DNA of 64,000 nt from Ignavibacteriota bacterium (GCA_003170475.1 PMZI01000052.1:1-64000), one strand, 5' to 3'; counted from the stretch's first letter, positions 1-11,339 are shown. Notes: a model not told the origin generated them from the letters alone. Numbers and translations: made by a program.

Positions 1-515
1 GAGTAGGAGGGTGGGGGCGTATCCTTGGCGATGAAGGAAGCGGGTACACTATCGGGCGAGATGGCCTCAATGCAGTGACAAAGCACCTGGACGGTCGTGG
101 AAAACCAACGCTCCTGACGGCGCTCATCGATCAGCGATTTGGGCTTTCGAACCATGAGAAGATTATCGGATCGATCTATCGCAGTAGTTTCGATGTCGCG
201 ACAGTCGCACCGCTCGTTGTGGAAGCGGCGGAGGCAAAGGATCCCGAGTGTCAGCGAATTCTCAATAAGGCAACCTTCGAGTTGTTTGAACATGTCCGGG
301 TTCTTGTCAATAAGATAGAGGAGTCGAAGGGCGCCAGGGCAAAGATCCCGGTTGCATTTATCGGCGGCCTGATCAGCAATGACAATGTCTATCGGAGAAT
401 CCTGACCCAAAAAATAACGTTTTCGATGCCTCAAGTACATGTCATTGTTCCCGAGGCTTCACCGACCTACGGTGCTGTTCTTCTTTCCATACGCTCGGCT
501 CAGGACCAGCTATGA
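1..515 (+). CDS. BadF/BadG/BcrA/BcrD-family sugar kinase (GlcNAc/MurNAc kinase-like), 5' end outside window
   Basis: This is the C-terminal part of an ASKHA-fold ATPase of the BadF/BadG/BcrA/BcrD family. The open frame runs in from the window edge, with the first full codon at base 3, and starts GGWGRILGDEGSGYTIGRDG. That is the glycine-rich GDEGSG phosphate loop typical of GlcNAc kinases and of MurK-type kinases that phosphorylate GlcNAc or MurNAc. A GTG at 75 lies inside this conserved loop and so is not the true start. The C-terminal FIGGLISND and GAVLLS segments also fit the family. The stop overlaps the next gene as ATGA. Neighbours involved in wall salvage favour an amino-sugar substrate, but that is inference. 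Confidence 0.85.
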   Translation, partial: VGGWGRILGDEGSGYTIGRDGLNAVTKHLDGRGKPTLLTALIDQRFGLSNHEKIIGSIYRSSFDVATVAPLVVEAAEAKDPECQRILNKATFELFEHVRVLVNKIEESKGARAKIPVAFIGGLISNDNVYRRILTQKITFSMPQVHVIVPEASPTYGAVLLSIRSAQDQL

Positions 516-1984
516 GTTTGATCTCTGTCGCTCTGCCTTTTTCGACGCTGCCGCATTTTGAATCGACACTTCGGCAGTTTATCGAATCGCCGCTGGTGGA
601 AAGGATCTTCGTGGTCCATGGCGGTGAGTACTCCGGTGTCCACCGGAAGTGCGAAGGCGTTGTTTCACCTACTCTCGCCTCGGGGAAAACGCTCAACAGT
701 ATTCTCGGGAAAGTACCATCCGGCTATTTTCTTTTCGTCTCGCAATCGCAGGAATTCCAGCTAGGTCAGGCTGCTCTTGAACGGTTCACGAGCATTGCGG
801 AGCAGACCTCCGCCGGCATGTGCTATTCCGACTTCCATGATGTCAAGAAAGGCGTCCGGTCAGAACATCCTGTGATCGATTATCAGTTTGGGAGCATCCG
901 CGACAACTTCGATTTCGGAGCGCTCCTTCTGTTTTCGATGCCTGCGGTGAAACAGGCGCTTTCTTCTCTCGGTCCTGTCGCAAATGTCGAGGGAGCCGGA
1001 CTCTACGACCTGCGGCTCAAGGTTTCCGTATCCCATTCACTATTTCACATTCAAGAACATCTCTACACAAAAGTGGAATCTGATCTGCGCCTGACCGGTG
1101 AGAAGCTCTTTGACTATGTCGATCCGAGGAACCAGATCGTGCAAAAGGAAATGGAGGCCGTGGCCACACAGCATCTGAAGAATGTGGACGTTTATCTGGC
1201 TCCGCGCTTCAAGCCTCTTCCGAAATCCAATGCTCAATTCCCTGTGGAGGCAAGTGTGGTCATCCCGGTGCGAAATCGGGAACACACGATCGCCGACGCG
1301 GTCCACAGCGTTCTCCAGCAGAAGTTCGATGGTCCTTTCAACTTGATCGTCGTCGACAATCATTCTACTGACGGAACGACCAAGGTCCTTTCGGACTTGG
1401 CGGCGCATTCCCCCGCATTGAAGCACATTATTCCTTCGCGCCACGATCTTGGAATCGGCGGCTGCTGGAACGAGGCCGTCCTTTCGCCTCATTGCGGGCG
1501 CTATGCGATCCAACTCGATTCGGATGACATCTATAGCGGGACGGATACGGTTCAGAAAGTCATCGACGCGTTCCGCGGCGGCGAGTATGCCATGGTGATC
1601 GGATCGTACAAGCTTGTGAACATGAAGCTTGAAGAACTCCCCCCGGGGCTCATCGATCATCGGGAGTGGACTCCTGAAAACGGGCGAAACAACGCCCTGA
1701 GGATCAATGGACTTGGGGCTCCTCGCGCCTTCAATACTGCTTTGCTGCGGCAGGTGTTGCTCCCCAATACGAGTTACGGCGAGGATTATGCCGTCGCAAT
1801 TCAACTTTCGCGCCACTATCAGATTGGCAGGGTTTTCGAATCCCTCTACTTGTGCCGTCGCTGGGAGGGGAACACGGATGCAGCCCTCTCTATAGAGAAG
1901 GCAAACCAAAACGACATCTATAAAGACAAGATACGCACCATAGAAATGCTTGCACGCCAACGCATGAATCGACAAGGAGCATAG
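512..1984 (+). CDS. Family 2 glycosyltransferase with two GT-A-like halves
   Basis: A 490-residue cytoplasmic-looking protein. Residues about 245-480 form a recognisable GT-A family 2 domain: ASVVIPVRNRE at its start, IVVDNHSTDG, and the metal/nucleotide-binding region QLDSDDIYSG. The N-terminal half (about 1-235) has the same rhythm of segments (ISVALPFS, IFVVHGG, GYFLFVSQSQ, GMCYSDFHD) but no clear DxD, so it may be a degenerate second GT-A domain. The start ATG overlaps the stop of the kinase gene, implying translational coupling. Donor and acceptor are unknown. Its place between a sugar kinase and a GalT-like protein suggests use of a salvaged sugar. The GT2 call is firm; the substrate is not. 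Confidence 0.82.
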   Translation: MSLISVALPFSTLPHFESTLRQFIESPLVERIFVVHGGEYSGVHRKCEGVVSPTLASGKTLNSILGKVPSGYFLFVSQSQEFQLGQAALERFTSIAEQTSAGMCYSDFHDVKKGVRSEHPVIDYQFGSIRDNFDFGALLLFSMPAVKQALSSLGPVANVEGAGLYDLRLKVSVSHSLFHIQEHLYTKVESDLRLTGEKLFDYVDPRNQIVQKEMEAVATQHLKNVDVYLAPRFKPLPKSNAQFPVEASVVIPVRNREHTIADAVHSVLQQKFDGPFNLIVVDNHSTDGTTKVLSDLAAHSPALKHIIPSRHDLGIGGCWNEAVLSPHCGRYAIQLDSDDIYSGTDTVQKVIDAFRGGEYAMVIGSYKLVNMKLEELPPGLIDHREWTPENGRNNALRINGLGAPRAFNTALLRQVLLPNTSYGEDYAVAIQLSRHYQIGRVFESLYLCRRWEGNTDAALSIEKANQNDIYKDKIRTIEMLARQRMNRQGA

Positions 1985-1985
1985 T

Positions 1986-2495
1986 ATGGCACACACTGTT
2001 CGCCGCTGGACGCTCGATGACCTGAGCACAGTTCAGGATGTACTTTGGAAGACGTGGCTTGATTCGTATTCGCATTTTATTCCCGAGGATGATTTGCGGG
2101 CATATTTCGCAGAACACTATGATCTGGATTCCCTTCGATCGCTCTTTCATAATCCGATGGCTGACGGATTTGTCATCGAGGTCGAGCGAAAGGTGGTCGC
2201 ATTCATGAGGACGGCAAGAGATCCCGAAGAAAACCGCTACTACGTCTCTTCGCTCTATGTGCTCCCGGAGTTTCAGTCCAAGGGTCTTGGAAAGTTGTTG
2301 ATGAAACGCGCTGCCGAGGAGGCGAAAGCGTTTCGACTTGACCGCTTGTGGGTTGGCGTCATGGTGCAGAATCAACACACCGTTGATTGGTACAAGAGCA
2401 TGGGATATCAGGTGGTCCGGACGGAGCCTTTTTCGATGGGCAAGTCGACAGTCGACCATCACATCGGTTTTATCATCAACGAGTCGATTCATTAA
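1986..2495 (+). CDS. GNAT-family N-acetyltransferase
   Basis: A 169-residue single-domain GNAT acetyltransferase, transferring an acetyl group from acetyl-CoA to an amine. The acetyl-CoA pyrophosphate loop is visible as QSKGLGKLLMKRA, preceded by the strand YVSSLYVLPEF and followed by VQNQHTVDWYKSMGYQ, the usual C-terminal half of the fold. The start ATG has an AAGGAG-like site just upstream and follows the glycosyltransferase stop by one base, so it belongs to the same operon. The acceptor cannot be read from sequence; an amino sugar or a muropeptide amine would fit the neighbours but is only a guess. Confidence 0.85.
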   Translation: MAHTVRRWTLDDLSTVQDVLWKTWLDSYSHFIPEDDLRAYFAEHYDLDSLRSLFHNPMADGFVIEVERKVVAFMRTARDPEENRYYVSSLYVLPEFQSKGLGKLLMKRAAEEAKAFRLDRLWVGVMVQNQHTVDWYKSMGYQVVRTEPFSMGKSTVDHHIGFIINESIH

Positions 2496-2507
2496 ACCTG
2501 CTCCCCC

Positions 2508-3545
2508 GTGAGGAGGGAAACCTTCTCTGTTCGCCGGAGGCACACTGCTGAGAATCTTCTGACACCACTGATTCAAGCCAGGTCCTTTACAGCCGTCAAC
2601 TCGGAGACTCCACTGGCTGAGCTTTCACGTCAGCTTCTGGAACATCAGAAACTGACGTGGCCCCAACTGACGACGGGGTACGCTTCGCTGGCAACCGTCC
2701 GTCTGCGCGAAATCCGTTGCCGGGGGTTCTCCGTTTGGCTCCAGTTTAATCCCGGTCGTATCGTGAGCACGGGCGCAAAGGTCGACGCGCAGTCAATCCG
2801 TGAGCGCCGCTGTTTCCTCTGTGTGGAAAACCTTCCCGAGCCGCAGAAGGGAATCGTCTACAAGGATGAGTTTCTCATTCTGTGCAACCCAGCTCCTATT
2901 TTTGCGGAGCACTTCACCATCTCGAATATCCGTCACATACCCCAGGTCCTCGCACCGTACATCCCGACGATGCTGGATCTTGCCCGCGACCTCAGTCCCC
3001 GGCTCACAGTCTTTTACAATGGACCAAAGTGTGGTGCTTCGGCCCCCGACCACATGCACTTCCAGGCAAACCCGACGGGAGTGATTCCCGTCGAACTGTC
3101 TGCAAGGGAAGAATCGCGCCGGATGTTTCGTCGGTCAATCGATTCGGTGGATATCCTGACATTGCAGGACTTCGGGCGTCAGGTCATTGTGCTTGAGTCG
3201 CGTCAGAAAGAGAATCTCGTTACAGTCCTGACCAATCTCACCGAGGCGCTTCGGCAGACCATGGGAGTGAGTGAAGAGCCGATGATGAATGTGTTGTGTT
3301 CCTTTTCGGGGGAGGAGTGGAGAGTGATCCTCTTTCCGCGAAGCAAACACAGGCCCGATGTGTTTTTCAAGGAGGGGGCGGAGCGCATTGTGATCAGTCC
3401 AGCAGCCGTGGACATCGGAGGCCTGATCGTTACACCGCTTGAGAAGGATTTCAAGACAGTTGATGCATCCCGGGTGGAGAGCATTTTTCAGGAAGTGAGC
3501 CTTCCGCCCGCGGATCTTGATAAGACCATCCTGCAGCTTTCATAG
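2508..3545 (+). CDS. DUF4922 protein, GalT/HIT-type nucleotidyltransferase-like
   Basis: A 345-residue protein of the DUF4922 family. It has C102-F-L-C105, placed like the zinc-binding CxxC of galactose-1-phosphate uridylyltransferases. It also has D181-H-M-H-F-Q186, a HIT-superfamily HxHxQ motif that in GalT-like and GDP/ADP-sugar phosphorylases carries the nucleotidylated histidine. Known family chemistry therefore suggests transfer or phosphorolysis of a nucleotide-sugar bond, but I know of no proven reaction for this family. The start is a GTG at 2508; no in-frame ATG exists until far into the fold. It lies 12 bases after the GNAT gene and 14 before spoIID, in the wall-salvage cluster. 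Confidence 0.72.
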   Translation: MRRETFSVRRRHTAENLLTPLIQARSFTAVNSETPLAELSRQLLEHQKLTWPQLTTGYASLATVRLREIRCRGFSVWLQFNPGRIVSTGAKVDAQSIRERRCFLCVENLPEPQKGIVYKDEFLILCNPAPIFAEHFTISNIRHIPQVLAPYIPTMLDLARDLSPRLTVFYNGPKCGASAPDHMHFQANPTGVIPVELSAREESRRMFRRSIDSVDILTLQDFGRQVIVLESRQKENLVTVLTNLTEALRQTMGVSEEPMMNVLCSFSGEEWRVILFPRSKHRPDVFFKEGAERIVISPAAVDIGGLIVTPLEKDFKTVDASRVESIFQEVSLPPADLDKTILQLS

Positions 3546-3559
3546 ATTCTAAAAAAACC

Positions 3560-4894
3560 ATGATTCATCAGGAACCATATGTAAGCGTCGGAGTTGTAGA
3601 ACATGTGCCCGAAATTCAGGGCACCTTCAATGGCCGCTTTGAACTTCCGACCACTGTGCGACTGGAAGGGAAGTTCACCGTCCGCTCACTTGATGGTCGC
3701 TTCGTCCTGTTCGATGATGAAGACATTGAGGTGATGAAGGGTGAAGACATCTGTTGCACAGCGCTCAATCGCGCGACGTTCACGCTGCATGAAGTAACGA
3801 TCGGTATTAACTTTCATTGGGAGCGCAAGGAAGACCAGACGTTCGAGGGAAACCTGCGGTTTGTTGCGGCGCCGGACGGCTCGTTGACGGCGATCAACGA
3901 AATTGGAGTCGAAAACTATCTGAAAAGCGTGATCTCATCGGAGATGAGTGCTGAAGCTCCGCTCGAGTTGCTCCGTGCGCATGCGATCACATCAAGGAGC
4001 TGGCTCGTCGCAATGCTTTACAAACAGATGCAGGCAAGAAACGTTGGTGTACCAACGATCCGATCGCGGGAAACGGAGTCGGAAATCGTCCGATGGTACG
4101 ACAGAGAAGACCACCTGCTGTTTAACGTTTGCGCCGACGACCACTGCCAGAGATATCAGGGCATTTCGAAAATCATTACGGAGAATGCTCAGAAGGCAAT
4201 CGAGGATACGAGGGGTGTCCTGCTCGTTCACGATGACCAGGTTTGCGATGCCCGTTTCTACAAAGCCTGCGGTGGACTCACGGAGGATTTTGAAAACGCC
4301 TGGGAGGACACTGCTATTCCTTACCTGCGGTCTGTCTCGGATGCAGAACAGCCCTATGGCGACAAATCCGCAGAACCTGAAGCGCGCGAGTGGATACTCT
4401 CTTCACCGAAAGCTTATTGTAACACGAACGATGTCGCTATTCTGAAGCAGATTCTTCCCTCGTTCGATCAGGAGACCACGGACTTCTTTCGTTGGCGCGT
4501 GGACTATTCACGCGAAGAACTCGAGCGCATCGTACACAAGAGGTCGGGGATTGACTTTGGAACAATCACGGCACTCCTTCCGTTGCAACGCGGACCATCC
4601 TCAAGGATCACGCGGCTGAAGATTGTCGGGACGAAGAAAACCATGATCGTCGGAAAAGAACTTGAGATCCGCCGTTGGCTCTCGAACAGTCATCTGTACA
4701 GTTCCGCATTTGTCGTGGAGGCGGAACTTGACTCCCGTGGATTGCCAACTCGCTTTACCTTGCATGGAGCAGGGTGGGGGCATGGGGTCGGTCTGTGCCA
4801 AATTGGTGCAGCGGTGATGGCGGCACAGGGAAAGAAAGCAGAAGAGATCGTGCTGCACTATTTTTCGGGTGCCAGCCTGCAGAAACTCTACTAA
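3560..4894 (+). CDS. SpoIID/LytB-domain protein (peptidoglycan lytic enzyme or amidase activator)
   Basis: A 444-residue protein with a complete SpoIID/LytB domain. In Bacillus SpoIID is a lytic transglycosylase that cuts glycan strands lacking stem peptides, and LytB stimulates an amidase. The core is visible as VISSEMSAEAPLELLRAHAI with the likely catalytic Glu at residue 128, then TSRSW, a C-x2-C-like cysteine region (CADDHCQRYQG), and the C-terminal GWGHGVGLCQIGA and HYFSGA motifs. No signal peptide is evident at the chosen ATG, which is unusual for a wall-acting enzyme. The protein may work on imported muropeptides or leave by another route. It is followed directly by the AmpG-like gene. 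Confidence 0.85.
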   Translation: MIHQEPYVSVGVVEHVPEIQGTFNGRFELPTTVRLEGKFTVRSLDGRFVLFDDEDIEVMKGEDICCTALNRATFTLHEVTIGINFHWERKEDQTFEGNLRFVAAPDGSLTAINEIGVENYLKSVISSEMSAEAPLELLRAHAITSRSWLVAMLYKQMQARNVGVPTIRSRETESEIVRWYDREDHLLFNVCADDHCQRYQGISKIITENAQKAIEDTRGVLLVHDDQVCDARFYKACGGLTEDFENAWEDTAIPYLRSVSDAEQPYGDKSAEPEAREWILSSPKAYCNTNDVAILKQILPSFDQETTDFFRWRVDYSREELERIVHKRSGIDFGTITALLPLQRGPSSRITRLKIVGTKKTMIVGKELEIRRWLSNSHLYSSAFVVEAELDSRGLPTRFTLHGAGWGHGVGLCQIGAAVMAAQGKKAEEIVLHYFSGASLQKLY

Positions 4895-4919
4895 ACCTAT
4901 CCTCGAAGAGGAATCCGGT

Positions 4920-6770
4920 ATGGAGAACAACCAGAAGAACTATCGAAACCCCTGGGCGTGGGTCCCAACATTGTATTTTGCGCAGGGGATTCCGTACGTC
5001 GTCGTGATGACGGTGTCCGTCATCATGTACAAACGGCTGGGGATCTCAAATTCCGACATCGCCTTCTACACAAGTTGGTTGTATCTGCCCTGGGTGATCA
5101 AGCCACTGTGGAGTCCTTTCGTCGACATGTTCTCCAAGAAGCGCCTCTGGGTGGTCTCCCTTCAATTTGTGATAGGGCTCGGACTGGCTTCGGTGGCATT
5201 TACTCTTCCGGCGTCAGCGTTCTTCCAATGGAGCATAGCGATGTTCTGGCTGATGGCGTTCGCCTCAGCGACCCATGATATCGCGGCAGATGGTTTCTAT
5301 ATGCTCAGTCTGGAACAACACGAGCAGGCAACGTTTTCCGGCGTTCGCAGTACGTTCTATCGGGTCGCGATGCTGACGGGTCAGGGGCTCCTCGTCATTG
5401 TGGCCGGCACCATTGAGACGAGTTCGAGTCTCCCCACGCACGATGTCACCGTCCAAGCAGTTCGTTCAATCGCAGACACAAGCGTTGCCATGACCGATCT
5501 TGTGGCGGAACCAGGAACTCAGGTTGCAGTGCTTGCGGGTCCTCCCGTCTTGCGAATTCCTTTGATTCCGAGAACCAAGCTTGAAGTGGATTCGGTTGTG
5601 AAGTCGGTTGCATCACGGAACATCGCGAACGCGTTTCGCACGGCAGACGAAAAAATAGAGAGCAGTTGGTGGGATAGAGTGGTGTCCTCGAGGATCAAAC
5701 AATTCATCCGCGATCTCGTCGGCGAACACAGGGGGTCCGATGCCGATGTCGACAAACGCGGAAATGTCGGGCTCGTTCATCTCCGCCTTTCACGTCCGCC
5801 GCTGGATGACAGCCCGGTGGTTGTGGCATTCGAACACAAGTCCGGGGACGCAAGTCTCAAAGTGGTAGAGGGCGACCGATTGACCTTCACACGTGGGAAT
5901 TGGGACAAGGGTGCGCTCATCGTCGTGCAACTTGACAAGAACCTGACCAAGGAGGAATCCGCGGTCTTCGCTGCCAAATCCGGGAATATCCCGTTTGCGT
6001 GGTCCGTGACGTTCAGCGTTCTCGCCGGAATGTTTCTTCTCCTGTTCGCTTATCACAAGCTGATGCTGCCCTATCCCTTGGCGGACAAGCCGACGCGTGC
6101 GGATGCGTCTCAAAGCGTCTGGAAAGAATTCGTTCATACGTTCGCGCTCTTCTTCAACAAGAAGGGGATCATTGCCACACTCGCGTTTCTGCTCTTCTAT
6201 CGATTTGCTGAGGCTCAGCTCGTCAAAATGGTATCCCCCTTTCTCCTCGATCCAAGGGGCAAAGGAGGTTTGGGTCTGACGACAAGCGAAGTCGGAATTG
6301 TCTACGGGACAGTCGGCGTCATTGCACTCTTGCTTGGAGGGCTCCTTGGAGGATATATCGTCTCCAGGAAGGGTCTCAAGTACTGGTTGTGGATCATGGT
6401 ATTTGCTATTCATCTCCCGGATGTCGTGTTTGTGTTTCTGTCGCAAGTTCAACCCGAGAGTCTCCTCCTCATCAACCTCGGTGTTGGTCTGGAGCAATTC
6501 GGCTATGGATTTGGGTTCACGGCGTACATGTTGTACATGATTTCTGTTTCTGAAGGGGACCACAAGACCGCTCACTATGCAATCTGCACGGGCATCATGG
6601 CGCTTGGCATGATGCTGCCAGGAATGTTCAGCGGAGATCTTCAGGAACTGGTTGGATACAAGAACTTCTTCCTCTGGGTCATCCTCGCGACGATTCCCGG
6701 ATTTCTTGTCGCAGCATTTGTGAAGATCGATCCGCTCTTTGCAAAGAAGGTTGTGAAAACTCAGGAATGA
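4920..6770 (+). CDS. AmpG-like MFS transporter with a large soluble insert
   Basis: A 616-residue major-facilitator transporter resembling AmpG, the permease that brings anhydro-muropeptides or related wall sugars into the cytoplasm. The ATG at 4920 follows a GAGGAA site; an earlier in-frame start at 4869 lies inside the spoIID gene and is disfavoured. The N-terminal half has WVPTLYFAQGIPY and YLPWVIKPLWSPFVDMF, typical of AmpG. Between the two membrane halves (about residues 165-355) lies a soluble insert ending in a beta-sandwich-like stretch with LTFTRGNW (about 319-327), reminiscent of Calx-beta or adhesin-type repeats. The second half resumes at about 356. The large insert is the oddity. 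Confidence 0.83.
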   Translation: MENNQKNYRNPWAWVPTLYFAQGIPYVVVMTVSVIMYKRLGISNSDIAFYTSWLYLPWVIKPLWSPFVDMFSKKRLWVVSLQFVIGLGLASVAFTLPASAFFQWSIAMFWLMAFASATHDIAADGFYMLSLEQHEQATFSGVRSTFYRVAMLTGQGLLVIVAGTIETSSSLPTHDVTVQAVRSIADTSVAMTDLVAEPGTQVAVLAGPPVLRIPLIPRTKLEVDSVVKSVASRNIANAFRTADEKIESSWWDRVVSSRIKQFIRDLVGEHRGSDADVDKRGNVGLVHLRLSRPPLDDSPVVVAFEHKSGDASLKVVEGDRLTFTRGNWDKGALIVVQLDKNLTKEESAVFAAKSGNIPFAWSVTFSVLAGMFLLLFAYHKLMLPYPLADKPTRADASQSVWKEFVHTFALFFNKKGIIATLAFLLFYRFAEAQLVKMVSPFLLDPRGKGGLGLTTSEVGIVYGTVGVIALLLGGLLGGYIVSRKGLKYWLWIMVFAIHLPDVVFVFLSQVQPESLLLINLGVGLEQFGYGFGFTAYMLYMISVSEGDHKTAHYAICTGIMALGMMLPGMFSGDLQELVGYKNFFLWVILATIPGFLVAAFVKIDPLFAKKVVKTQE

Positions 6771-6846
6771 TTCCGATTGATTCTCGAGACATTGCTTCGT
6801 AATTTTTCTATCCAATCTTCAACCACTTTCTAAGAACGGCTGGTCC

Positions 6847-9756
6847 ATGCAATCCCATTCTCTGCACACACGATGTCTGTTGCTTGCTTGCCTCCGCAGG
6901 GGGGCAAGTTTTCTCCTCCTGAGTCTGACCGTGTCGTTTTCGTCATTTGCCCAGGAAGTCTCCACAATGTTTGTTACCAGCGAAAAGCCTGCCACCTCTG
7001 AGTGGGTCGAATCGACCCTGAAGCGGCTGTCGCTCGAAGAAAAGGTCGCTCAGCTCGTGTTTCCGTCAACACCGGGGACGTATTATGCTCAGGATTCTGA
7101 CCCGTGGCGGGAGCTCGAAAAGTACGTTACCAAGCGAAAAGTGGGGGGCTTGGTTCTCTCCATCGGTGACGTCTACGAGTATGCTCTCATGGTCAACAAA
7201 CTCCAGAAAGCTTCCGACATACCGCTCCTCATTGCTGGTGACTTCGAATACGGAGCTGCAATGCGCGTTCATCGGGCAACCATGTTTCCACGCGCGATGG
7301 CAATCGGTGCGACGAGGAATCCCGGTTACGCTTACGAAGTCGGGCGTGCTACTGCTGACGAAGCCAGGGCGCTGGGGATCCATCAGAATTTTGCTCCGAC
7401 AATCGATGTCAACAACAATCCCAGAAATCCGGTCATCAACACACGGTCCTACGGTGATGATGTCAAACTGGTGACGGAAATGGGGACGGCATTTGTGCGC
7501 GGCACGCAGGAAGGCGGCATGATTGCCACCGTCAAGCATTTCCCCGGGCATGGGGATACGGACGTCGATACACACCTTGGAATGGTAACGCTCAACTACA
7601 GCAAGCAGCATTTTGATTCGATTGAATTCCCCCCCTTCCGGGCTGCGATCAAAGCAGGAGTGAAGTCTGTCATGGTCGGCCACATCGCCTTGCCGGCGTA
7701 TGATACCGGCAAAGGAATCCCTGCCACTGTTTCTCCACGAATCACGACCGATCTTCTGCGCAAAGAGTTTCATTTCGATGGGCTTATCGTCACCGATGCA
7801 ATGCGTATGCGGGGTGTCGCTTCGAAATACAGTTCGGGGGAAGCATCGGTTCTCGCGATCAAGGCCGGAACGGATATTGTCCTGATGCCGTCAGACATCG
7901 ACGTGGCGATCGATGCCATCATCGCTGCCGTAAAACGCGGCGATATTTCCGAGCAGCGCATCGATGCTTCAGTTCGCAGAGTCCTGCAGACGAAACAGGA
8001 TATGAGACTCGACCTGGATAGGATGGTGAATGTCGGGAAGATTTCCAGTGTGGTTTCCACCCGCGGTCACGAAATGCTCGCGATGCAGATAGCACGGAGA
8101 GCCGTAACGGTTCTCGGGAACAAGAGTGAAATCCTTCCTCTTTCTCCTGTGGATACGAAGAAAATTGTCGACATCAACGTTTCAGACACGGAAGATCCCA
8201 AGAACGGTCGATCGTTCCATTCGATGCTGCACGATCGCCGCCTCAACGTCGAGTTCGCGAAAGTCGATCCAAGAAGCGACGATGCCGAATATGACTCCGC
8301 TCTCGAAATGGCAGCGGGCGCGGATGTGATCATTTTTCAACTCAATCTCTCTACCCGCTCCGGTGAGATGACGGGATTCGTTTCGCGGAGACAAAAGGAG
8401 TTCCTGACGCGTGCATGTGCTCTTGGGAAGCCGGTCATCGTGATCTCCTTCGGCAACCCATATGTTATCATGGATCTTCCAAAAGTTGACGCCTACGTCT
8501 GTGCGTACTCCGATGCTGAGGTCATGCAGCAAGCCGTGGCTGAGGTGCTCTTCGCGGAATCTCCCGCGGAAGGGAAACTTCCCATCACCATTCCCGGTGT
8601 GTACAAGTTTGGAGATGGCGTCGCATATCCGAAAACAAGACTGCGAACGGGGATTCCTGAAGAAGTTGGATTCATCAGAGACAGTCTCGATGTTGTCGAC
8701 AAGATCGTGAACCAGGCGATCAAAGACACGTCATTCCCAGGTGCGGTACTTGTCATTGTGAAAGACGGGGTCATCGTTCAAGAGAAAGCATACGGGTCAT
8801 ATGAGTACGAACCGTATTCCAAGAGAGTCGATGTCAACACGATCTTTGATCTTGCATCCGTTACGAAGGTCATCTCCACGACGAGCGCCGTCATGCGGTT
8901 GGTCGGAGAGGGCAAACTGAAACTGGACGATCCGGTGGTCAAGTACTTCCCGAAGTTTGGCCAATTCGGAAAGGAACGCATCACGCTCTACAATCTCATG
9001 GTCCATAACTCGGGTCTGGTGGGCTGGGCCAAGTTCTATGAGTTCTGCAAAACGCCTCAGCAGCTCCTTGACTCGATTTTTGCGACGCATCTCACCTTCA
9101 AAACAGGTGACTCAACAGTGTACAGCGATCTCGGTTTGATCACCACGGGCAAGATCGTCGAAAAAGTCACCGGCACCACTCTTGACAATTATGTCGACTC
9201 GGTGTTCTTCAAGCCGCTGGGAATGACGAGTACGATGTACAACCCTCCCGAACGACTCTGGAATCGCGTCATGCCGACCGAAGTGGACAACTTCTGGAGG
9301 AAGACGGGTACCGCGGTTCGTGGAACAGTACACGATGAAAACGCCTCGATCCTCGGTGGTGTTTCGGGTCATGCTGGACTCTTCTCCACGGCTCCGAATC
9401 TTGCAGTCCTTTTGCAGATGGAGCTGAAGGGCGGCGTCTACGGAGGAAAGAGATTTCTCAAAGAGGATGTTCTTCGGAAGTTCACCACCAGGCAATCACC
9501 GAAGAGCTCTCGCGGGATTGGCTGGGATACGAAGATTTCTCCTCATGGATGGTCGGGCAAGTTGCTTTCGGATAAAACGTGGCTGCACACTGGGTTCACC
9601 GGTACGTCTGTGGTCACTGACCCGACGAGGGAACTCATTGTTGTCTTCCTGACGAACAGAGTCTATCCCACGCGGGACAACCAGAAGATTGGCGCGATCC
9701 GCGCGAAAGTGCATGATGCTATCGTGCGCTCGCTGATGCAAGAGCAAGAGAAGTGA
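6847..9756 (+). CDS. Secreted GH3 beta-N-acetylhexosaminidase (NagZ-like) fused to a beta-lactamase-family serine hydrolase
   Basis: A 969-residue two-domain enzyme. An N-terminal signal peptide ends near residue 36 (FSSFAQ). The GH3 domain shows the NagZ signature KHFPGHGDTDVDTH (residues 230-243), with the His/Asp pair used as acid/base in this family, and the nucleophile Asp317 in VTDAMRM. A GH3 C-terminal domain follows to about residue 600. Residues about 620-969 form a penicillin-binding/beta-lactamase-like hydrolase with S671-V-T-K674, Y759-S-D and H914-T-G. NagZ removes GlcNAc from muropeptides; the second domain could cleave stem peptides or esters. Export contrasts with cytoplasmic E. 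coli NagZ. It ends the salvage cluster. Confidence 0.92.
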   Translation: MQSHSLHTRCLLLACLRRGASFLLLSLTVSFSSFAQEVSTMFVTSEKPATSEWVESTLKRLSLEEKVAQLVFPSTPGTYYAQDSDPWRELEKYVTKRKVGGLVLSIGDVYEYALMVNKLQKASDIPLLIAGDFEYGAAMRVHRATMFPRAMAIGATRNPGYAYEVGRATADEARALGIHQNFAPTIDVNNNPRNPVINTRSYGDDVKLVTEMGTAFVRGTQEGGMIATVKHFPGHGDTDVDTHLGMVTLNYSKQHFDSIEFPPFRAAIKAGVKSVMVGHIALPAYDTGKGIPATVSPRITTDLLRKEFHFDGLIVTDAMRMRGVASKYSSGEASVLAIKAGTDIVLMPSDIDVAIDAIIAAVKRGDISEQRIDASVRRVLQTKQDMRLDLDRMVNVGKISSVVSTRGHEMLAMQIARRAVTVLGNKSEILPLSPVDTKKIVDINVSDTEDPKNGRSFHSMLHDRRLNVEFAKVDPRSDDAEYDSALEMAAGADVIIFQLNLSTRSGEMTGFVSRRQKEFLTRACALGKPVIVISFGNPYVIMDLPKVDAYVCAYSDAEVMQQAVAEVLFAESPAEGKLPITIPGVYKFGDGVAYPKTRLRTGIPEEVGFIRDSLDVVDKIVNQAIKDTSFPGAVLVIVKDGVIVQEKAYGSYEYEPYSKRVDVNTIFDLASVTKVISTTSAVMRLVGEGKLKLDDPVVKYFPKFGQFGKERITLYNLMVHNSGLVGWAKFYEFCKTPQQLLDSIFATHLTFKTGDSTVYSDLGLITTGKIVEKVTGTTLDNYVDSVFFKPLGMTSTMYNPPERLWNRVMPTEVDNFWRKTGTAVRGTVHDENASILGGVSGHAGLFSTAPNLAVLLQMELKGGVYGGKRFLKEDVLRKFTTRQSPKSSRGIGWDTKISPHGWSGKLLSDKTWLHTGFTGTSVVTDPTRELIVVFLTNRVYPTRDNQKIGAIRAKVHDAIVRSLMQEQEK

Positions 9757-9782: not shown

Positions 9783-11339
9783 ATGGCCATCTCGTCATTC
9801 AAGAATGAACCATTAACTGATTTCACGAAGCCGGCAAACCGAAAAGCCATGGAGCTGGCGCTGGCGAAAGTAAAATCGATTCTGGGGAAAGAATACCCCG
9901 CCGTTATCGGCAAAGAAGAGATTACCACTCCGGACAAACTCAACTCCTACAACCCCTCTCGACCAAAGGAAATCGTCGGTGTCTTCCAAAAGGCTGATAT
10001 CGCGATGGCCAACAAAGCCGTGGAGACCGCTGCCGCAAAATTCGAAGAGTGGCGCTGGGTGGATCCAAAAAAGAGAGCTGAGTTTCTCTTCAAGGCCGCG
10101 AAGTTGATGCGCAAACGAAAACATGAATTCAGCGCCGTGATGGTCTATGAAGTTGGAAAGACGTGGCCTGAAGCTGATGCGGACACTGCCGAGGCGATCG
10201 ACTTCATCGAGTTTTACGCGAGGGAAATGCTTCGGTATGCCGGAAAGCAGCCGATCACGAAAACTCCCGGAGAGAAGAACGAACTCGTCTATATCCCTCT
10301 TGGAGTGGGATTAGTCGTGCCTCCTTGGAACTTTGCCCTTGCCATTCTCACTGGTATGACCTTGGCGGCTGTCGTCACGGGGAATACCGTGGTACTCAAG
10401 CCTTCGAGCGATTCTCCGCTGACAGGGTGGATGTTGTTCAATTTGATGCGCGAAGTGGGACTCCCGGCGGGAGTCATCAACTTCGTGACCGGTCCCGGAG
10501 GCTCGTTCGGCAATGCCATCGTCGCTCATCCGAAAATCAGGTTCGTCTCGTTTACTGGTTCCAAGGAAGTGGGTATTCATATCAATGAGCTCGCTGCAAA
10601 AGTGCAGCCGGGTCAGATCTGGTTGAAGCGCGTTGTTGCCGAGATGGGCGGAAAGGATTCCATCATCATCGACGATCAGACCGACCTGGAGGCGGCGGCA
10701 CAAGCGACCGTTGCTTCAGCGTTTGGATTCCAGGGTCAGAAATGTTCTGCAGCCTCGAGAGCGATCGTGGTAGAGAAGGTCTATGACAGGTTTGTCGAGC
10801 TTCTAAAGCAAAAAACCGCAACGCTGAAAGTTGGCGCTTCGGACGATCCTGCAAACTACCTGGGTCCCGTCATCAACGAAAGTTCCGAGCGAAAAATCCT
10901 AGCGTATGTCGAAAAGGGAATTCAGGGAGGAGGCCGGCTCATCGTTGGTGGCAAGAAAGCAGCAGGCGAAGGGTATTTCATTCAGCCGACAGTCATCGCA
11001 GACGTTCATCCAAAGTCGACGATTTCTCAGGAAGAGATCTTCGGACCGGTTCTGGCTGTCATCAAGGCAAAGGACTTTGATCATGCTCTGGAAATCGCGA
11101 ACGACACGGAGTTTGGATTGACCGGCGGTGTCTGGACAAAGAATCGCAAGAAAATTGAAAAGGCGAAGCGGGTATTTCACGTTGGCAATTTCTATGTCAA
11201 TCGGAAGATCACTGGGGCAATGGTCGGTGTGCATCCCTTCGGGGGATTTAATATGTCTGGCACAGACTCCAAGGCCGGCGGAAGGGACTATCTCCTGCTG
11301 ATGATGCAGGCGAAGTCGATTTCCGAAAAGGTGAAGTAG
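9783..11339 (+). CDS. pruA: L-glutamate gamma-semialdehyde dehydrogenase (1-pyrroline-5-carboxylate dehydrogenase)
   Basis: A 518-residue NAD-dependent aldehyde dehydrogenase that oxidises glutamate semialdehyde to glutamate in proline and arginine breakdown. The catalytic cysteine is C321 in GQKCSAASR and the general-base glutamate is E287 in VAEMGGKD. The NAD-binding VPPWNFALAI and FTGSKEVG segments are intact. The N-terminus, with ALAKVKSILGKEYP and ITTPDKLNSYNPSRP, and the C-terminal GGFNMSGTDSKAGGRDYL match the stand-alone PruA/RocA type rather than PutA fusions. No proline dehydrogenase gene is next to it. The ATG at 9783 is favoured. The family call is strong. Confidence 0.93.
   Translation: MAISSFKNEPLTDFTKPANRKAMELALAKVKSILGKEYPAVIGKEEITTPDKLNSYNPSRPKEIVGVFQKADIAMANKAVETAAAKFEEWRWVDPKKRAEFLFKAAKLMRKRKHEFSAVMVYEVGKTWPEADADTAEAIDFIEFYAREMLRYAGKQPITKTPGEKNELVYIPLGVGLVVPPWNFALAILTGMTLAAVVTGNTVVLKPSSDSPLTGWMLFNLMREVGLPAGVINFVTGPGGSFGNAIVAHPKIRFVSFTGSKEVGIHINELAAKVQPGQIWLKRVVAEMGGKDSIIIDDQTDLEAAAQATVASAFGFQGQKCSAASRAIVVEKVYDRFVELLKQKTATLKVGASDDPANYLGPVINESSERKILAYVEKGIQGGGRLIVGGKKAAGEGYFIQPTVIADVHPKSTISQEEIFGPVLAVIKAKDFDHALEIANDTEFGLTGGVWTKNRKKIEKAKRVFHVGNFYVNRKITGAMVGVHPFGGFNMSGTDSKAGGRDYLLLMMQAKSISEKVK

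Follow-up and report, generated by a model that had tools for sequence, protein, structure and literature searches.

What do three cytosolic proteins of unassigned role do beside a muropeptide permease and a sugar kinase? The question is raised by the first 9,756 nucleotides of a 64,000-nucleotide stretch from an Ignavibacteriota bacterium (GCA_003170475.1, PMZI01000052.1:1-64000; the whole stretch is called the window here), where an AmpG-family permease and a BadF-type kinase are encoded together with a family 2 glycosyltransferase (GT2), a DUF4922 protein and a SpoIID/LytB-family protein. Judged by its gene content, the locus is in outline an ordinary AmpG/MurK peptidoglycan-recycling operon of the Bacteroidota type with variations of its own. 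The best overall explanation, to which we give a probability of roughly one half, is that the cytosolic module of this operon processes wall disaccharides imported by AmpG in the stead of the N-acetylglucosaminidase NagZ.

Recurrence of the gene set and apparent absence of NagZ

The gene arrangement is not due to chance, because the same set was found again in the same order in other genomes. The nearest relatives (loci L046, L050 and L051) keep the full order of kinase, GT2, GNAT acetyltransferase, DUF4922, SpoIID, AmpG and NagZ/beta-lactamase fusion. In a survey of the phylum DUF4922 was confined to the class of the window, where 24 of the 148 genomes surveyed have it, two with marginal matches. 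Named relatives belong to the Ignavibacteria, the Bacteroidales and Syntrophales-type Deltaproteobacteria. Of 98 distinct loci, 85 have GT2 immediately ahead of DUF4922, and three of the exceptions lie at contig edges. In six Syntrophales loci (L056, L069, L073, L084, L105 and L107) the two genes form one open frame, and many frames of fusion length were found; a DUF4922-SpoIID fusion occurs in Carboxylicivirga (L126). Some Syntrophales also carry a GNAT gene between GT2 and DUF4922. Among 21 Bacteroidales loci SpoIID was present in 20 and AmpG in 18. The initial annotation, made from the sequence of the window, had set co-occurrence of DUF4922 and GT2 with AmpG, BadF and NagZ genes elsewhere as a check on its proposal of wall-sugar salvage, and such co-occurrence was found.

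The association extends to whole genomes. We compared 36 genomes of the window's class, 22 with DUF4922 and 14 without. A full-length SpoIID orthologue was present in 22/22 of the former and 0/14 of the latter, one of which gave a weak partial match (Fisher's exact test, 2.6e-10), and AmpG was present in 22/22 and 2/14, respectively, one of the two matches being weak (7.3e-8); both values are uncorrected for relatedness. In one family (f4) the module genes lie apart in the genome and the co-occurrence still holds, so the association is more than linkage. Genome G004, of the window's own family, has neither DUF4922 nor SpoIID, and its AmpG match is weak. We consider it likely that AmpG and the cytosolic SpoIID, GT2 and DUF4922 proteins are a working unit for processing wall fragments in the cytosol.

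Neighborhoods of the GT2-DUF4922 pair differ in detail. In f4 loci (for example L049, 4421-9213) the pair adjoins a divergent histidine kinase, a sigma-54 response regulator and a receiver-SpoIIE phosphatase, not AmpG. Some Ignavibacteria loci (L100, 6145-7254; L043, L094 and L106) have a GT4 gene between SpoIID and GT2/DUF4922, and three of these are without a nearby GT2.

NagZ belongs to glycoside hydrolase family 3 (GH3), and the distribution of this family was compared with that of DUF4922 in 79 Syntrophia genomes of unstated completeness. DUF4922 was detected in 53 of these and a GH3 domain in 14, with an overlap of 0 (Fisher's exact test, 7.8e-9). Of the 53 genomes with DUF4922, 52 had an AmpG homologue; the 14 with GH3 had none, and GH20 was absent from all 79. 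No GH3 was detected in G055, a genome of the window's order. The window's own genome gave seven GH3 matches. Three of them are NagZ-like (the one in the window, L147 and L159) and carry N-terminal hydrophobic segments, and the sole match without an export-type segment (L164) is of the beta-xylosidase/glucosidase type. Thus no cytosolic NagZ was recognized in this genome, its NagZ-like proteins having export-type N-termini; here and throughout, export and cytosolic location were predicted by hydropathy. The step that seems to be missing is the splitting of disaccharides in the cytosol, which GT2, DUF4922 and SpoIID could supply.

Recovery of the sugars downstream appears to follow known routes. 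The initial annotation had proposed that the GNAT, DUF4922 and GT2 proteins process the sugar, in place of sole use of the classical MurQ or AmgK/MurU routes. The findings do not support this: genes for MurQ (C14:176823) and AnmK (C14:19422) are present in the genome to which the window belongs, and in other genomes the pair shares operons with genes of both routes. The Syntrophia loci combine GT2-DUF4922 with SpoIID, AmpG, a MurU-like NTP-transferase and an AmgK-like APH kinase. In Bacteroides ihuae (L129) the order is Golvesin-type protein, PQQ protein, GT2, DUF4922, SpoIID, AmpG, NamZ, oxidase linked to flavin adenine dinucleotide (FAD), MurT-type transporter, MurK and MurQ-type protein. 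Since the pair accompanies MurK/MurQ in Bacteroidales and AmgK/MurU in Syntrophia, it is independent of the downstream route, and it is no replacement for sugar activation. A bypass of MurQ or AmgK/MurU was rejected accordingly, both coexisting with the pair, and so was strict replacement of AnmK as a general rule, as AnmK is found in this and several other genomes with DUF4922. The oxidase of the Bacteroides operons is a 955-residue FAD-linked oxidase/iron-sulfur protein encoded between NamZ and the MurT-type transporter (L129, 14898-17762).

Proteins of the module and their proposed chemistry

GT2 is predicted to adopt a GT-A fold and has the D-x-D and E-D catalytic residues; D336/D338/D339 and E424/D425 were invariant in 64/64 sequences. 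The initial annotation described tandem GT2 domains. Pfam recognizes a single one (residues 248-388), and the second, N-terminal GT-A-like domain is supported by the predicted structure. The model (predicted local distance difference test score, pLDDT, 92) has as nearest folds the chondroitin polymerase K4CP, the heparosan synthase PmHS2, TarP and TarS. PmHS2, TarP and TarS are UDP-N-acetylglucosamine (UDP-GlcNAc) enzymes, and the latter two are GlcNAc transferases of wall teichoic acid. The modelled GT2 thus resembles UDP-GlcNAc beta-transferases.

The earlier description of DUF4922 as GalT-like is borne out by fold and invariant residues. Its model (pLDDT 94) matched the diadenosine tetraphosphate (Ap4A) phosphorylase Apa2 first (3.8e-12) and GalT second (2e-5), and the family profile matched yeast Apa2 (8.8e-6). 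The alignment to Apa2 spans the H-x-H-x-Q motif. Residues C102, C105, H135, H143, H182, H184 and Q186 are invariant among 72 sequences and presumably form a GalT-type metal site and nucleophile. By predicted fold, CxxC and histidine metal site and H-x-H-x-Q nucleophile, DUF4922 belongs to the HIT/GalT nucleotidyl-transfer superfamily. It has the fold, zinc-type cysteines and histidine and H-x-H-x-Q motif in common with yeast Apa2, GalT and plant GDP-L-galactose phosphorylase, but it is about 15% identical to these, bacterial, and paired or fused with GT2. A plant study places DUF4922 in one conserved-domain superfamily with GDP-L-galactose phosphorylase (PMC9871823). Our literature search for bacterial DUF4922 turned up only plant papers and no assigned bacterial function.

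SpoIID enzymes normally work outside the cytoplasm and are known to cut MurNAc-GlcNAc (MurNAc, N-acetylmuramic acid), not GlcNAc-MurNAc. The protein encoded in the window has the same domain as SpoIID lytic transglycosylases and keeps the S-E-M motif with the catalytic glutamate, but it differs from them in having no signal peptide or hydrophobic N-terminus. Nearly all listed homologues likewise are without an export signal. A SpoIID protein with this predicted location is unusual because members of the family are normally extracytoplasmic. One could suppose that this protein alone splits the disaccharide and that DUF4922 is a clean-up enzyme, acting on Ap4A or on wrong nucleoside diphosphate (NDP) sugars like the animal GDP-glucose phosphorylase. 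The closest solved relative of DUF4922 is indeed an Ap4A phosphorylase, and SpoIID-family enzymes act on glycan strands. We regard this as very unlikely, as DUF4922 probably has a sugar substrate, judging by its fusion to GT2 and its almost exclusive association with it, and the bond that SpoIID enzymes are known to cut is the other one.

The likeliest chemistry by which the module could take the place of NagZ can be outlined. Inverting GT2 enzymes form beta bonds from alpha-NDP-sugars, and the reverse reaction yields NDP-GlcNAc from a beta-GlcNAc bond. Phosphorylases in the superfamily of DUF4922 convert an NDP-sugar and phosphate to sugar-1-phosphate and NDP. After import of wall disaccharides by AmpG, GT2 might run in reverse on the beta-1,4 bond, giving NDP-GlcNAc and MurNAc from disaccharide and NDP; DUF4922 would then phosphorolyze NDP-GlcNAc to GlcNAc-1-phosphate and regenerate NDP. 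The net reaction would be phosphorolysis of the disaccharide with NDP as a catalyst or cofactor, similar in logic to sucrose synthase in reverse. A possible role of cytosolic SpoIID is opening of the 1,6-anhydro ring, which would be the reverse of the last step of a lytic transglycosylase, and freed MurNAc would enter the host's route, from MurK to MurQ here and in Bacteroidales and from AmgK to MurU in Syntrophia. Coupled phosphorolysis would account for the strict GT2-DUF4922 pairing, the fusions and the lack of NagZ. The coupling of GT2 reversal to NDP-sugar phosphorolysis is possible, if somewhat doubtful, taken on its own. The complete proposal is tentative and lies on the doubtful side: a two-part disaccharide phosphorylase, fused in Syntrophales, with an NDP cofactor, which would cleave GlcNAc-MurNAc into MurNAc and GlcNAc-1-phosphate while SpoIID opens the anhydro ring, giving NagZ- and AnmK-independent recycling in Bacteroidales, Ignavibacteria and Syntrophia. 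We found no literature on phosphorolytic muropeptide cleavage of the GT2-DUF4922 kind.

In the forward reading of the initial annotation, the kinase would make a sugar phosphate, DUF4922 would carry out a GalT-like nucleotidyl transfer to it and GT2 would spend the nucleotide sugar on a glycan. The GalT/Apa2 fold with its intact nucleophile, the intact catalytic residues of GT2 and the presence of kinase, DUF4922 and GT2 in one operon all agree with this. GalT chemistry, however, needs a 1-phosphate, whereas BadF MurNAc/GlcNAc kinases of this type are known as 6-kinases; Syntrophia already have AmgK and MurU next to the pair for activation; and both the cytosolic SpoIID and the lack of NagZ are left unexplained. 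This alternative is unlikely.

Several points weigh against a module acting in place of NagZ. The Syntrophia with GH3 are lineages that also have no AmpG, so a split between clades explains part of the exclusion between GH3 and DUF4922. Most of the GH3 proteins found in Syntrophia without DUF4922 (L168-L179) have N-terminal hydrophobic segments and look exported. The search for NagZ covered GH3 and GH20, other glycosidase families not being searched, and it was confined to the other groups, Bacteroidales having many glycosidases. Seven of the 98 DUF4922 loci have no nearby GT2 and no contig edge to explain it. AnmK is present in the window's genome. Nothing fixes the nucleotide or the direction of the reaction, and the predicted active site equally allows GalT-type transfer to a sugar phosphate. 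With these points taken into account, we see the chances of a role in place of NagZ as evenly balanced.

Layout of the locus and its neighborhood

All seven genes (Table 1) were confirmed by open reading frame and family searches. The initial annotation described them as running in one direction with gaps of at most about 80 bases, and this was confirmed, spacing ranging from a 4-base overlap to a 76-base gap. The kinase, GT2, GNAT, DUF4922 and SpoIID proteins are all without a membrane segment.

Table 1. Genes of the recycling locus at the start of the window (contig C32)
Product	Position	Strand	Basis or remark
BadF-type MurNAc/GlcNAc kinase (MurK-like), C-terminal part	1..515	+	family search; PDB match 8zo3
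GT2-family glycosyltransferase, 490 aa, predicted cytosolic, two GT-A-like domains	512..1984	+	family search, model
GNAT acetyltransferase, optional member	1986..2495	+	family search
DUF4922 protein, 345 aa, Ap4A-phosphorylase/GalT fold	2508..3545	+	family search, model
SpoIID/LytB-family protein, no signal peptide or membrane segment (predicted cytosolic)	3560..4894	+	family search
AmpG-family muropeptide permease with ~187-aa insert	4920..6770	+	best ATG ~4920
GH3 (NagZ-like), predicted exported, fused to serine beta-lactamase/PBP4B-like domain	6847..9756	+	N-terminal hydrophobic segment

The first base of the window is also the first base of contig C32, which cuts the kinase gene. The BadF kinase that had been reported is present, but only as its C-terminal part; the N-terminal half is found on the minus strand where contig C20 begins, and a 16-base overlap joins the halves into a protein of 317 residues. 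Its best solved relative is the MurNAc/GlcNAc kinase 8zo3 (E = 2.4e-43, residues 5-309). BadF fold and homology to this characterized enzyme indicate a kinase of the MurK type and, together with AmpG, bear out the earlier assignment of the locus to wall-sugar salvage. It had been suggested that murQ or NamZ might be found to the left of the window. The kinase is preceded on C20 by divergent thioredoxin and DsbD genes, and neither NamZ, MurT nor MurQ was found by tblastn in the window or in 20 kb of C20. AmgK and MurU genes were not found in the window or the C20 stretch, the rest of the genome not being searched for them.

On the other side, an aldehyde dehydrogenase gene (9783-11339, + strand) begins 26 bases after the GH3-beta-lactamase gene, so position 9756 is not a demonstrated operon end. 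An aldehyde dehydrogenase homologue also lies shortly 3' of the GH3-beta-lactamase gene in L046 and L051. Promoter and terminator sites were no commoner in our scan than in shuffled sequences. The GH3-beta-lactamase protein, predicted to be secreted, is proposed to act outside the cytoplasm. The insert of AmpG (coding positions about 5424-5984, near residues 169-355) lies between transmembrane segments, is predicted to be outside the membrane and had no Pfam match. This long form is also found in other members of the class and in Muribaculaceae (L123), and sister genera have the short form.

Relation to known recycling systems

The closest known counterpart is the ampG-murTKQ operon of Tannerella forsythia. 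Tanf_08345-08385 is one transcript by reverse transcription PCR, controlled by GppX, and was earlier called glycosylation-related, with Tanf_08355 labelled as a second glycosyltransferase (PMC5388701, the only paper in which we found this gene). From the gene order, not from its sequence, we infer that Tanf_08355 is DUF4922. AmpG of T. forsythia imports GlcNAc-MurNAc and GlcNAc-anhydroMurNAc (anhMurNAc) and is needed for their use; no AnmK was found, and the authors leave the fate of anhMurNAc and the later steps to future work (PMC7670621). The locus in the window has in common with this operon and with that of B. ihuae a GT2, the second "gtf" position (DUF4922 in Bacteroides), LytB/SpoIID, AmpG and a MurK-type kinase, all in one direction. 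It differs in adding GNAT and GH3-beta-lactamase genes, in having no NamZ, MurT or MurQ in the operon (MurQ is elsewhere in the genome), and in having the kinase first, not near the end.

The earlier label of the T. forsythia operon raises the possibility that GT2 and DUF4922 serve to synthesize or mend a glycoconjugate such as an envelope or protein glycan and are merely co-regulated with wall recycling. The signaling cassette that takes the place of AmpG beside f4 loci and the GT4 gene beside SpoIID in some loci would fit this. Against it stand the lack of lipid-carrier or membrane glycan genes common to the loci and the fact that AmpG and cytosolic SpoIID strictly accompany DUF4922, also where the genes lie apart, and we find it quite unlikely.

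Peptidoglycan recycling is usually drawn from Escherichia coli and Pseudomonas, with AmpG feeding NagZ. The window's genome resembles these systems in predicted AmpG import of wall disaccharides and recovery of MurNAc, and it also has AnmK and MurQ, but it has no predicted cytosolic NagZ and three extra cytosolic proteins accompany AmpG. What is new here is a module of AmpG, SpoIID, GT2 and DUF4922 that does not depend on the route that follows, together with the finding that it occurs where NagZ is missing. In Bacteroidales, gut Bacteroides among them, and in Ignavibacteria and Syntrophia, AmpG goes together with three uncharacterized cytosolic proteins instead. This names candidate proteins for the fate of anhMurNAc that was left open in T. 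forsythia, an organism dependent on the import of disaccharides from the wall, and DUF4922 would gain a function that can be tested. If the imported disaccharide is split in a new way, GT2, DUF4922 and SpoIID are the strongest candidates for doing so.

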